Source: a virus
Virus record (IMG/VR): IMGVR_UViG_3300008952_000342
Coordinates: 1-21,588 of that record
Length of the DNA: 21,588 bases
Strand: one strand, 5' to 3'
Shown in pieces: positions 7,270 through 18,352 of the stretch. Every line of letters begins with the position of its first letter. The first letter of the stretch is position 1. A program made the translations under genes and the position numbers. The notes beneath the pieces are model-generated. The model saw only the letters and a list, made by a program, of their open reading frames with translations. It was not told the origin of the DNA and made no database searches.

Positions 7270-7830
7270 TTATTGTTTCCTTGTTATTTTGGTTCGGTTT
7301 CCTACGAACACGTTAAAAATATCCATAGGCATATCTTTATTATTTTCGATACGCTCACGGACCATTGCTTTGAGAGTCATGGGCTCAACCTTCAACTTTT
7401 GTGTCGGTTGATACCCTTGACCCTTCGCAAGGTTAGCATATTCTGCCGCCTTGTTATCTTCGTTCCGTCCAAAGGAAACAGTGATTTCATTTTTAATGAT
7501 ATCACCTAGGCCATTGGAACGAAGCCAATTATACGCCGCCTCTCTATTTTTGATAGAGATGTTCGCCGAATAATACGGTTTCACATCAACTGCAGATCCA
7601 TCTGCTAGTTTGAGAGATGATAACCCCATTTCACTTAAAAGTGTAGGGATAACTTCTCCTGAAATTCGTTCAATTTCTTTTTCTTTATCTTTTAAAGCTT
7701 GTTCTTCTGCTTTAACTTGATCTTCTAAGTCTCTCAGCTTTTTAACTTGATCAGCTAAGGACTTTATGTTTTCCGTTCTATCCAGAACTTCTGTCTGGTC
7801 TTTTTCCATTTGATTTATTAGTTCACTCAT
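7270..7830 (-). CDS. Conserved hypothetical phage protein with coiled coil
   Basis: A 186-residue early protein that I do not recognise by function. Residues about 20-58 form a highly charged coiled coil (LADQVKKLRDLEDQVKAEEQ and onward), so it probably oligomerises. The rest looks globular, with PYYSANISIKNREAAYNWLR and a conserved-looking NEITVSFGRNED segment, ending VGNRTKITRKQ. Position, one gene before the probable single-strand DNA-binding protein, suggests replication or recombination; an annealing-protein partner or nuclease inhibitor are guesses only. AAAGGA lies 7 bases before the ATG. Its start overlaps the end of the 130-residue gene by 8 bases. Confidence 0.8.
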   Translation of the reverse strand: MSELINQMEKDQTEVLDRTENIKSLADQVKKLRDLEDQVKAEEQALKDKEKEIERISGEVIPTLLSEMGLSSLKLADGSAVDVKPYYSANISIKNREAAYNWLRSNGLGDIIKNEITVSFGRNEDNKAAEYANLAKGQGYQPTQKLKVEPMTLKAMVRERIENNKDMPMDIFNVFVGNRTKITRKQ

Positions 7831-8215
7831 CTATTTTTCCTTTCTCATACATATTTATTTCTAGTGGATAATACACTTTCTCTTGTCTGTCCCATTTTAA
7901 AAGATTAAATCTACCACCGTTTATATCAGATGCAATCGTACATGCCAACCCAATAATTGCTGGATCGCCTGAAAGTAGTAAATAATCTTTAGACGTGTAA
8001 TTTTTTAGTAATCTTCTTAATTCAAAAATTACAGGACCAGGACTTAATACAATCTGTGCATTCTCTTTTAAAAGAACTTTTAATTTACCATATTTTAAAG
8101 CACCCATAATGTTAAATTTAGGACGACCAATGCTAGTGCCTGGTAATTCCTGAATAACATAAACAATAGGTTCTTTATGTTTTATATTTTGGTAATCCAT
8201 ACTTTCTTTATTCAT
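7823..8215 (-). CDS. Conserved hypothetical early phage protein, first gene of the replication operon
   Basis: A 130-residue protein with the pattern VYVIQELPGTSIGRPKFNIM, then KLKVLLKENAQIVLSPGPVI and YLLLSGDPAIIGLACTIASD, ending with a WDRQEKVYYPLEINMY segment. I recall this family as an unnamed protein of many marine phages; its function is unknown to me. Small residues and alternating hydrophobic strands suggest an alpha/beta fold. It is the promoter-proximal gene of the leftward arm: the predicted minus-strand promoter places the transcript start only about 8 bases before the ATG at 8213-8215. A second ATG six codons in is an alternative start; neither has a strong ribosome binding site. 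Confidence 0.82.
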   Translation of the reverse strand: MNKESMDYQNIKHKEPIVYVIQELPGTSIGRPKFNIMGALKYGKLKVLLKENAQIVLSPGPVIFELRRLLKNYTSKDYLLLSGDPAIIGLACTIASDINGGRFNLLKWDRQEKVYYPLEINMYEKGKIDE

Positions 8216-8222
8216 AACTTTC

Positions 8223-8251
8223 TTGACAAGATATAGGACATTCTGTATATA
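8223..8251 (+). promoter_or_regulatory. Sigma70-type promoter for the SNF2 helicase gene
   Basis: A perfect TTGACA (8223-8228) is followed after 17 bases by TATATA (8246-8251); a full TATAAT at 8248-8253 gives a 19-base spacing instead. Transcription should begin near 8258-8260, leaving a leader of only about 12 bases before the ATG at 8271. Together with the opposing promoter it forms an imperfect palindrome, 8223-8258, with arms TTGACA..ATATA and TATAT..TGTCAA, which could also be a repressor or activator site. Confidence 0.7.
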
Positions 8252-8258
8252 ATGTCAA
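8230..8258 (-). promoter_or_regulatory. Sigma70-type promoter for the leftward replication operon
   Basis: Reading the minus strand, a perfect TTGACA (8258-8253) is followed after 17 bases by TATATC (8235-8230). The expected start of transcription is near 8223, about 8 bases before the ATG of the 130-residue gene. It faces and overlaps the rightward promoter at 8223-8251. Confidence 0.65.
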
Positions 8259-8270
8259 TAGAAAGTAAAA

Positions 8271-9704
8271 ATGAATTATAAATTTAAAACGCAGCCATAT
8301 GCGCATCAATTAAAAGCGCTTGAAATGTCCTGGAATAAGGAAGTCTTTGCTTATTTTATGGAGATGGGAACGGGTAAATCTAAAGTTTTACTAGATAACG
8401 TTGCTATGCTCTTTGATAAGGGCAAAATCAATAGTGTCCTAATTGTGGCACCAAAAGGAGTATATAAAAATTGGTATGACTCCGAAATACCAGAACATTT
8501 AGCAGAACATATTGATAGAAACGTAGTGCTTTGGAAAGCTCTCATTACTAAAGAGCAAAAATCTAAGTTGGATTCTCTATTCGAGCAGGATTTTACCAAG
8601 CTACAAGTTTTGATTATGAATGTTGAGGCTTTATCAACTAGAAAAGGTCTTGATTTTGCTCATCAGTTCTTGAACGTTAAAAGAACTTTATTTGCTGTGG
8701 ATGAATCAACCACTATTAAAAATCCACAGGCTAAAAGAACCAAAAACATTATTCAATTGTCTACATTAGGGAAATATAGAAGAATTTTAACAGGATCACC
8801 TGTCACTAAATCCCCTCTTGATTTATATACACAGTGCGCCTTCTTGGATCCTTATTTATTAGATTTTCAGTCTTATTATGCCTTCAGAAATAGATATGCA
8901 GAAATGCGAACTGTTAATTTTAGCGGACGATCTGTTCAAGTTGTTACAGGATATAAAAATTTAGCTGAATTGTCAGAAATTCTTAAACCTTTTTCCTATC
9001 GAGTATTAAAAGATGATTGTTTAGACCTTCCCCCTAAAACTTATATGAAAAGGGTCATACAATTAACCCTAGAACAAAAGAAAGTTTATGAGGAAATGAA
9101 AAAAACAGCTCTTGCCACTTTAAATGGTAAAACAATTACAACTATGAATGTTATTACTCAATTAATGAGATTGCAGCAAATTACGTGTGGCCATTTTAAA
9201 GCGGATGATGATTCTATACAAAATATAAAAAGTAATCGTATTACAGAACTCATGGATGTGCTTGAGGAAGTTGAGGGCAAAGCCATTATTTGGGCTCATT
9301 GGCGTCATGACATTGACACAATTGTAGAGTCTATTGAAGAAAGGTATCCCGAGTCTGTGGTAACGTATTATGGTGATACAACAACTGATGATCGACAGAA
9401 AGCGATTAAGAAGATACAAGATCCAGAAAGCAAAGTACGATTCCTCGTTGGCACCCCACAGACCGGTGGTTATGGAATTACCCTTACAGGTGCGTCCACC
9501 ATGATTTATTATTCTAATGGTTATGACTTGGAAAAACGTCAACAATCGGAAGCAAGAATTGATCGTATTGGTCAAAAGAAACCTATGACCTATATTGATA
9601 TTCTTGCGGAAGATACTATCGACGAAAAAATCGTAAAGTCCCTCCGCAAGAAAGTAAACATCGCCACTGAAATTATGGGCGAGGAATTAAAAGATTGGAT
9701 TTAA
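8271..9704 (+). CDS. SNF2-family DNA helicase/translocase
   Basis: A 477-residue SF2 translocase of the SNF2/Rad54-like type, the minimal two-RecA-domain form. The Q-motif region YAHQLKALEMSW is followed by Walker A EMGTGKS (31-37), motif Ia VAPKGVYKNW (59-68), the DExx box DEST (144-147), motif III TGSPVT (174-179), motif IV and V with GTPQTGGYGITLT (394-406), and motif VI QQSEARIDRIGQ (424-435) with the arginine finger region. No nuclease, bromo- or other accessory domain is attached. It probably moves along duplex DNA to remodel protein-DNA complexes or aid recombination and fork restart; many marine phages carry a similar gene. It is the first gene on the plus strand, divergent from the replication operon, and convergent with the heat-shock gene. 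The start has only a weak AAAG ribosome site. Confidence 0.95.
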   Translation: MNYKFKTQPYAHQLKALEMSWNKEVFAYFMEMGTGKSKVLLDNVAMLFDKGKINSVLIVAPKGVYKNWYDSEIPEHLAEHIDRNVVLWKALITKEQKSKLDSLFEQDFTKLQVLIMNVEALSTRKGLDFAHQFLNVKRTLFAVDESTTIKNPQAKRTKNIIQLSTLGKYRRILTGSPVTKSPLDLYTQCAFLDPYLLDFQSYYAFRNRYAEMRTVNFSGRSVQVVTGYKNLAELSEILKPFSYRVLKDDCLDLPPKTYMKRVIQLTLEQKKVYEEMKKTALATLNGKTITTMNVITQLMRLQQITCGHFKADDDSIQNIKSNRITELMDVLEEVEGKAIIWAHWRHDIDTIVESIEERYPESVVTYYGDTTTDDRQKAIKKIQDPESKVRFLVGTPQTGGYGITLTGASTMIYYSNGYDLEKRQQSEARIDRIGQKKPMTYIDILAEDTIDEKIVKSLRKKVNIATEIMGEELKDWI

Positions 9705-9717
9705 TCCCCTAAAATGT

Positions 9718-9755
9718 AGGATATACACGCAACGCGTTGTAATTTTTGATATCCT
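9718..9755. terminator. Inverted repeat between convergent genes, possible bidirectional terminator
   Basis: AGGATAT (9718-9724) pairs with ATATCCT (9749-9755), and the perfect 10-bp palindrome CAACGCGTTG (9730-9739) lies between them. On the plus strand it is followed by TATTTTA. It fills the 50-base gap between the ends of the SNF2 and heat-shock genes, where a terminator for both directions is expected. The T-runs are short, so termination strength is uncertain; a protein binding site at the palindrome is the alternative. Confidence 0.5.
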
Positions 9756-10192
9756 TATTTTACTGTTATTATTTTTGGCTTCTTAGTCTCAGGAACTATT
9801 TTCATCAGATATACTTTAAGCAATCCGTCTTTTAACTCAGCACCTTCGATTTTTATATCGTCAGCGATGGTAAAAGATTTTGAAAAGTATCTTTTTGCAA
9901 TACCTTTATGGATCACTCCTTTTTTATCTTCTGCTTTTGCTTCCTTGATAGATTTAATGTTTAAGACGCCATCAGCATACTCTACGGATATATCCTTTTT
10001 ATTGTAGCCTGCTAACGCAACTTCTATGTTGTAAGTATACGTTCCAGTCTTAACAATATTGTAAGGTGGATAATTTGCCGTTGGTAAACGAAAGTCATCG
10101 TCAAACATCCTTTCGAAATGATCGAAGATGTTATCGAAACCTACCGATACGGGTCTTAATTGATTAAATATGGATAATGCTCTATTTGTCAT
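9755..10192 (-). CDS. Small heat-shock protein, Hsp20/IbpA family
   Basis: ATP-independent chaperone of 145 residues with the alpha-crystallin domain. The N-terminal arm (FDNIFDHFERMFDD, 19-32) matches the IbpA class. The domain starts at YPPYNIVKTG (41-50) and contains IEVALAGYNKKDISVEY (56-72), DGVLNIK and a closing L-K-D-G-L-L-K-V strand (120-127). The C-terminus VPETKKPKIITVK (133-145) carries the I-x-V-type anchor needed for oligomer assembly. Phages of marine hosts, including T4-like cyanophages, carry such genes; help with virion assembly or protection of phage proteins is the usual suggestion. The start is secure: AAGGAGG lies 5 bases before the ATG. A hairpin and a candidate promoter lie in the upstream gap. 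It is read convergent to SNF2 and divergent from the metallopeptidase gene. Confidence 0.95.
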   Translation of the reverse strand: MTNRALSIFNQLRPVSVGFDNIFDHFERMFDDDFRLPTANYPPYNIVKTGTYTYNIEVALAGYNKKDISVEYADGVLNIKSIKEAKAEDKKGVIHKGIAKRYFSKSFTIADDIKIEGAELKDGLLKVYLMKIVPETKKPKIITVK

Positions 10193-10391: not shown

Positions 10392-10823
10392 ATGAAAGTA
10401 AAAAATGTAAAATATCTTCAAGAGAAAAAACTTGAAGCAAAACGAATTTTAAAGTCCATTGCTAGGCACTGGTTTAAAATTCATAAAGTAAAAAAGATAA
10501 CATACGTTAAAGGTTTGTATGGTAAGGCATGGTGCAAAGAAAAAAGATTACGTATACCACCACCAACTACTAGAAAACGAATGTATATCATTGCACATGA
10601 GTTAGGTCATCTAGCTTTGCATACAAAGACTAGTAAACGACAATTCATTAAAGAGTTTGAAGCAGAACAATATGCTCATACTTTAATGAGACGTTTTAAT
10701 ATCAAAGTACCTAGAGATATGACTGTTAGAGCAAAGAACTATGTGCAGTATAGAATAAACCTATCGGTTAAAAGAGGTTTACAAGCACCAATACCTAAAG
10801 AAATAAATCTTTGGTTAGGATAA
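10392..10823 (+). CDS. ImmA/IrrE-type (M78-like) zinc metallopeptidase, stand-alone
   Basis: A 143-residue, strongly basic protein with a zinc peptidase site: IIAHELGHLALH (66-77) gives H69, E70 and H73, and EFEAEQYAHTLMRRF (88-102) gives the third ligand, as in the ImmA/IrrE pattern E-x-E-A-x-x-Y-A. The N-terminus is helical (LEAKRILKSIARHW) and the tail (VRAKNYVQYRINLSVKRGLQ) is basic and may bind DNA or a partner. ImmA cleaves the ImmR repressor of ICEBs1, and IrrE cleaves DdrO in Deinococcus. No repressor or helix-turn-helix domain lies beside this gene, so its target may be a host protein or a phage factor outside the window. The gene is alone on the plus strand, with its own promoter and a 19-bp direct repeat on each side, which gives it the look of an inserted accessory (moron) gene. 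Confidence 0.87.
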   Translation: MKVKNVKYLQEKKLEAKRILKSIARHWFKIHKVKKITYVKGLYGKAWCKEKRLRIPPPTTRKRMYIIAHELGHLALHTKTSKRQFIKEFEAEQYAHTLMRRFNIKVPRDMTVRAKNYVQYRINLSVKRGLQAPIPKEINLWLG

Positions 10824-17389: not shown

Positions 17390-18352
17390 TTAATTCCTTG
17401 GTGCAAATATCCTTCCATAAATATCAGCACCGGCTAAACCTAGCCCTAATGCTGTCATTAATGGACTAGCTCCTGCTGCTTGAGGTGCTTCTGAAAACGT
17501 AACTGATCCTCCTCCTGGAGTTAATCCTGCAATGCCTTGTCCTAACATGCCTAATCTTCTAATTGGATCTTGGACAGCCATCTGTGCTGTTTGTCTTTGA
17601 GCATCTAATAATGATTGTTGGTAAGCCTGTTGACCTGCACCTAGTGTGCCTAAACCTGCAATCTGTGCTCTACCATAATCTTGTGCCGTACCGCCTAGTC
17701 CTGACTGTAGATTAGCAATTCCCATTTGATTTGCTAAGTCTTGTTGTCTGGCTTGTTGCGCTTGTTGAAATCCTTGTTGTAGCATTTGTGCTTGGAGCGC
17801 GGCTCTGTTTCTATCACTTGCCGATTGATATTGTGCAAGTTGCACGCCTTCTCGACCACCGCCAAAACCACCTAGTGCAACTGCCGCATCTGAAATACCC
17901 TGTTGTCTTTGTGCTGCTTGCGTATCGAACTCTGCAAGTGCTGCATCAATTACGTCCGTTTGATAAGGTGACATGTAAGCTGTTCTTTGAGCTGCTGTCA
18001 TAGGTCCTGTTAAACCCGTTGCTGCATCTGCAGCCGTGCCTGCTTTAGTTAAAAAAGGTTGATAAGCACCCAGTCCTGTTGTTGGATCTACGGCTTGTTG
18101 ATAGGCTGCCGTTTGATAAGCATCTTGTGCAGCAACTTGCGGTGCAAGTTCCGCCATTCCTGCTTTTGTAATTCCATATTGTTGTGCCTGTGCTTGTCGT
18201 TGTGCAAACTGTTCGGCTGTTTCTCCAGGTTGCTGTGTAGTTGCTGTGGTAATTGAGGGTATGCCTGCTTGTCTTGTAAGATCCGCTGCATACGTTTTAC
18301 CTAACGCTTCAATATATTCTGGTGGTAAAGTTCTTGATTCTGTTATTGCCAT
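17390..18352 (-). CDS. Gln/Ala-rich late protein, probable ejection (internal core) protein
   Basis: A 320-residue protein with extreme Gln, Ala and Gly content. A helical middle (AEQFAQRQAQAQQYG; then QAQMLQQGFQQAQQARQQDL) would form long amphipathic helices, and a Gly-rich turn GGFGGGREGVQLAQY follows the DAALAEFDTQAAQRQQG helix. The C-terminus has a short hydrophobic stretch (SPLMTALGLGLAGADIYGRI). Low-complexity Gln/Ala helices with no Cys are common in short-tailed phage internal core proteins such as T7 gp14-16, which cross the host membrane during DNA entry; this is analogy of composition, not homology. The start overlaps the stop of the 571-residue gene as TAATG. Confidence 0.58.
   Translation of the reverse strand: MAITESRTLPPEYIEALGKTYAADLTRQAGIPSITTATTQQPGETAEQFAQRQAQAQQYGITKAGMAELAPQVAAQDAYQTAAYQQAVDPTTGLGAYQPFLTKAGTAADAATGLTGPMTAAQRTAYMSPYQTDVIDAALAEFDTQAAQRQQGISDAAVALGGFGGGREGVQLAQYQSASDRNRAALQAQMLQQGFQQAQQARQQDLANQMGIANLQSGLGGTAQDYGRAQIAGLGTLGAGQQAYQQSLLDAQRQTAQMAVQDPIRRLGMLGQGIAGLTPGGGSVTFSEAPQAAGASPLMTALGLGLAGADIYGRIFAPRN

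Follow-up and report, generated by a model that had tools for sequence, protein, structure and literature searches.

Grainger-type bidirectional promoters (PMC10268837, PMC12825309) consist of a divergent sigma-70 pair located between divergent genes, close enough for mutual blocking. They have one shared -10 element and their starts are mostly 18 bp apart (also 10 or 23 bp). In five E. coli bidirectional promoters, competition appeared only once one direction had been strengthened (PMC12825309). Overlapping divergent promoters also separate tetA from tetR of Tn10, where they are accompanied by operators and a repressor (Bertrand et al. 1983, cited in PMC11686294; also PMC3037858). The consensus for alphaproteobacterial sigma-70 promoters is CTTGAC-N17-CTATAT (PMC2873474, PMC2573895). 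No promoter mapping for HTVC023P-type pelagiphages was found in the literature.

The site described here shares with the Grainger type a putative divergent sigma-70 pair between divergent genes and, as its geometry implies, a distance close enough for mutual blocking. However, each promoter has its own -10 (8245-8251 and 8230-8236) and a consensus-like -35 box, and the predicted starts are approximately 33-37 bp apart. Like the Tn10 promoters, the pair overlaps between two genes, but no repressor was recognised and the interior holds no operator-like dyad. Both elements of the alphaproteobacterial promoter, with its exact 17-bp spacer, are matched, the difference being that two such promoters are interlocked on opposite strands.

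The window (the whole stretch of DNA analysed, 21,588 bases) is a fragment from IMG/VR virus record IMGVR_UViG_3300008952_000342 and a piece of a marine phage, a relative of the HTVC023P-type pelagiphages, which are described as widespread and abundant. The closest annotated phages of the collection, judged by the SNF2 protein, are 023Pt_psg01 (65%) and HTVC027P (64%), the latter a cultured pelagiphage; HTVC023P follows as the next cultured one. The cultured phages closest to it have SAR11, an alphaproteobacterium, as their host. Pfam places an SNF2-type gene to the right of the site and, to the left, Pam3 gp32-, gp33- and gp34-like genes, an AEP primase, a UvrD helicase and DNA polymerase A (in the order gp32-like, gp33-like, gp34-like, AEP primase, Eco29kI-like, UvrD helicase, PolA), so the site does separate SNF2 from the replication genes, as originally predicted. 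Both flanks thus carry DNA-metabolism genes, and no regulator was recognised beside the site among the ten proteins scanned with Pfam. The intergenic spacer is 55 bp, from the start of the gp32-like gene (8215, leftward) to that of the SNF2 gene (8271, rightward), and contains or adjoins the following features.

7823..8215, minus strand: Pam3 gp32-like gene, first of the leftward replication block (Pfam)
8218..8223, minus strand: candidate ribosome-binding site AGAAAG of the leftward gene; with the right-hand copy it lengthens the apparent palindrome
8222..8228, plus strand: rightward -35 box CTTGACA (TTGACA 8223-8228), a motif match, with TTGAC-N23-28-GTCAA at the same junction in 152 relatives
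8224, minus strand: predicted leftward transcription start (A), placed 7 nt past the -10; leader ~9 nt
8230..8236, minus strand: leftward -10 box CTATATC (TATATC 8235-8230), 6/6 to CTATAT, spacer 17; enriched in relatives at spacer 17
8245..8251, plus strand: rightward -10 box GTATATA (TATATA 8246-8251), 5/6 to CTATAT, spacer 17 from CTTGAC; enriched in relatives at spacer 17
8253..8259, minus strand: leftward -35 box ATTGACA (TTGACA 8258-8253), a motif match; box kept in relatives
8257..8258, plus strand: predicted rightward transcription start (A), placed 7 nt past the -10; leader 13-14 nt
8260..8265, plus strand: candidate ribosome-binding site AGAAAG of the SNF2 gene, complementary to the SAR11 16S 3' end ...CCTCCTTTCT
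8271..9704, plus strand: SNF2-type helicase gene, first to the right (Pfam PF00176, 3.3e-26; PF00271)

The coordinates bear out the claim that TTGACA occurs on both strands, each followed after 17 bases by a -10 box. The two promoters occupy the same 36-37 bp and each -35 box abuts the opposite -10. They had been called face-to-face, which is wrong because the predicted transcripts depart from the outer ends and never collide; divergent and overlapping is the correct description. Leaders of about 8-12 bases had also been predicted, which agrees with the left (~9 nt) and falls short of the right (13-14 nt), if +1 lies 7 nt past the -10. From the coordinates, overlap of the hexamers would end at an outer length of 35, and 36-37 would be close to the tightest packing with four separate boxes. 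Since the SAR11 16S rRNA has a matching 3' end, AGAAAG could plausibly serve both genes as ribosome-binding site, although in the window it stands unusually close to the ATG (5 and 2 nt).

Written against the alphaproteobacterial consensus, the sites read CTTGAC-N17-gTATAT (right) and aTTGAC-N17-CTATAT (left), the -35 matching at 6/6 and 5/6 positions, respectively. The core common to both, TTGAC-N18-TATAT, is found exactly twice in the 21.6 kb window, both times here, while shuffled windows have a mean of 0.08 and 0/100 reached two. There are no further copies between positions 1 and 21588, which suggests that the structural genes are probably transcribed by read-through or from promoters of other types. 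An automated promoter scan missed both sites, as it accepts only T at the final -10 position. The inverted pair TTGAC-N23-28-GTCAA is less striking by itself, being present in 11/100 shuffles, and conservation therefore had to decide. A DNA similarity search with the 55-bp spacer against public phages gave no informative matches. Inspection by eye found no double box at the second divergent gene pair of the window (10192/10392) or at other divergent pairs of HTVC027P. The genes of that second pair encode an Hsp20-type chaperone (9755-10192, PF00011) and a product with a HELGH motif (IIAHELGHLALH; 10392-10823), perhaps a metallopeptidase, for which Pfam gave no match.

The original prediction had proposed aligning the junction in related phages. 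Four viral-contig scans and annotated phages provided 326 loci; the SNF2 start could be read in 321, and both boxes were found in 152 of these 321 (39 distinct cores at < 85% identity). Their outer lengths were 33 (three loci), 34 (3), 35 (11), 36 (57), 37 (74) and 38 (4), the TTGAC arms being nearly invariant and the -10s variable. At the level of sequence, the inverted box pair is marked as real by its presence at this one junction in 152 relatives. As these loci were chosen by the motif itself, the exceptions matter. Setting aside the HTVC027P clade and the basal loci L024-L028 (see below), there is one clear exception within the two carrying clades, L075; L250 is cut by the end of its contig. 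A subgroup (L030, L038, L046) has two poor -10s. Four loci (L176, L217, L229 and L230) have an extra gene of 47-63 codons before SNF2, and in these the double box precedes the inserted gene; the element therefore belongs to the divergence point and not to the SNF2 gene. The tiny inserted genes differ among the four loci, suggesting a landing spot for small genes.

Enrichment of the -10 elements was measured on the 39 cores against dinucleotide shuffles of the interior. With the alphaproteobacterial consensus and the best of spacers 16-18, z was 7.1 for the right -10, 6.1 for the left and 10.1 for whichever was the weaker, values inflated by the shared ancestry of the relatives; 0/2000 shuffles reached the observed value for each of the three scores. 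When the register was slid, both directions and both clades gave a -10 signal that peaked at spacer 17, with a weaker period-2 echo of TATATA at spacer 15 and no signal at offsets 9, 11 and 21. That both boxes are conserved, along with the 17-bp spacing and the -10 in each direction, supports two overlapping divergent promoters, as had been claimed. The E. coli -10 consensus (TATAAT) gave a right signal above shuffles (z 3.6) and a weak left one (z 2.1), and was dropped in favour of the better-fitting alphaproteobacterial consensus; this switch was made after the data had been seen, though the consensus itself comes from outside. It derives from Sinorhizobium, and SAR11 is the presumed host from the relatives of the phage. 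A SAR11 promoter model built from TTGACA sites at 120 SAR11 rRNA loci was discarded because its apparent 17-bp peak came from the rRNA spacer and from a single conserved upstream region with the look of coding sequence. For SAR11 itself, no more than an approximate rRNA promoter was seen, CTTGAT-N16-yTATAA at some of the loci.

A quick SNF2 tree places the double box on the two deep branches of the clade that bears gp32, with the HTVC027P-like clade nested within one of them. In the HTVC027P clade the right -35 is kept, the left TTGAC box is gone and the genes are still divergent. Loci L024-L028, at the base of this clade, have a decayed left box (TTCCAA or TTTCAA instead of TGTCAA). The clade has a conserved AAAGTAAA, which on the other strand reads TTTACT and lies 16-18 bases before a TATA-type -10 overlapping the right -10; these left -10s score above shuffles (z 2.7, 3/1000), and 21-23 bp separate the predicted starts. 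From its sequences, the HTVC027P clade thus seems to have re-formed a left promoter on a shared -10 and by prediction fits the Grainger-type class. Both boxes are absent from the HTVC023P clade, which is more distant and has a different first gene, gp33-like. HTVC027P has no RNA polymerase of its own and depends on that of its host (PMC12753301); the host sigma-70 polymerase is therefore the likely user of these promoters.

Other features were seen in this clade. In two HTVC027P-like loci, L147 and L154 (~984-1500), a 172-codon ORF (MNDWMIIDSINTKPF...) lies between the promoter and SNF2, and the position of the relatives' SNF2 start reads ATA, not ATG (AAACATAAATTATAAG), possibly through a homing-type insertion. 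Within the GC-rich gap of 548 bp between gp34 and gp35 of HTVC027P there is a strong match to the Rfam family RF02976, Flavobacterium-1 RNA (90.2 bits, gathering threshold 58.9, E 6.8e-18; L091:5753-5873, minus strand; HTVC027P ~17,753-17,873), a small RNA family in a pelagiphage.

Relatives that keep only one box while the genes stay divergent had been named as evidence against the paired arrangement, and the HTVC027P clade contains them; yet this clade is nested within a two-box clade and has an alternative left promoter candidate. The loss of the left TTGAC box there would fit a real rightward promoter alone, with the left box kept for some other reason or by chance. That is very unlikely, as left -10 enrichment at spacer 17 is about as strong as right, the left -10 of the window is the better match of the two and the HTVC027P clade has its own TTTACT-N16-18 candidate with -10s above shuffles. 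The near-invariance of the TTGAC arms beside variable -10s, together with the frequent presence of operators in divergent spacers, might instead indicate that the TTGAC/GTCAA arms serve a symmetric DNA-binding regulator, from host or phage, as an operator overlapping the promoters. The site had been described as a 36-bp palindrome with symmetric TTGACA and ATATA arms. The count of 12 pairing positions in 18 holds, six lying in the two hexamers and 6/12 in the interior, but the interior pairing is not significant in the window (shuffle P ~0.10), is at chance across relatives (0.314 vs 0.324 in shuffles) and includes an ATATA symmetry that is not conserved. The symmetry consists only of the two -35 boxes and the outer AGAAAG ribosome-binding sites, and with the interior at chance it is not an operator-like dyad. 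The distance between the arms is also not fixed, taking every integer from 33 to 38 (about half a helical turn); each arm has its own -10 at 17 bp and the window holds no further copy, making an operator quite unlikely.

The promoters overlap completely, this overlap is conserved in the 152 relatives and the HTVC027P clade retains it in another register. A built-in either/or switch had been suggested on such grounds, in which competition between polymerases for the shared 36 bp commits a genome temporarily to expression of SNF2 or of the replication genes, and strong transcription one way can indeed suppress the other (PMC12825309). However, the five E. coli bidirectional promoters do not compete at basal activity (PMC12825309), DNA-metabolism genes lie on either flank, no regulator or feedback was recognised beside the site and the interior has no operator dyad. 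Simple compactness would equally lead to overlap, and exchange of polymerases should normally be faster than commitment. Such a switch is therefore improbable. It is likewise unlikely that a regulator-free form operates, in which steric competition would set which genome copies, or which phase of infection, express SNF2 versus replication genes, with exclusivity preserved as two -10s were rebuilt into one shared -10. The adjoining replication genes, AT-richness and symmetric ends could also belong to a replication origin or other structural DNA element that resembles a promoter by coincidence. An origin was rejected by GC skew, which does not reverse at this site in the window or at the corresponding junction in HTVC027P; Rfam has no match on the window and the conserved positions are those of the -35, -10 and ribosome-binding elements, leaving this explanation extremely improbable.

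The site is very probably a compact double promoter for the host housekeeping sigma-70 RNA polymerase, of the alphaproteobacterial type, with two outward units in the same 36-37 bp. The right promoter would drive the SNF2 gene, and the left promoter the gp32-like gene with the replication genes that follow it. Each -35 box, lying directly against the opposite -10, would cover the opposite start region, and by this geometry probably only one polymerase can be accommodated at a time, one direction excluding the other. With ribosome-binding sites directly after the promoters, leaders would be about 9-14 nt. Polymerases may load alternately, so that both units are expressed together. Because the published promoters show no basal competition and no regulator was recognised, the purpose is likely to be economy of space and shared expression rather than switching.

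As a near-minimal design for two full divergent promoters, the site offers a testable consensus, CTTGAC-N17-CTATAT, for phage use of the host polymerase. The apparent shift to a shared -10 in the HTVC027P clade would be a natural experiment on the evolution of bidirectional promoters.
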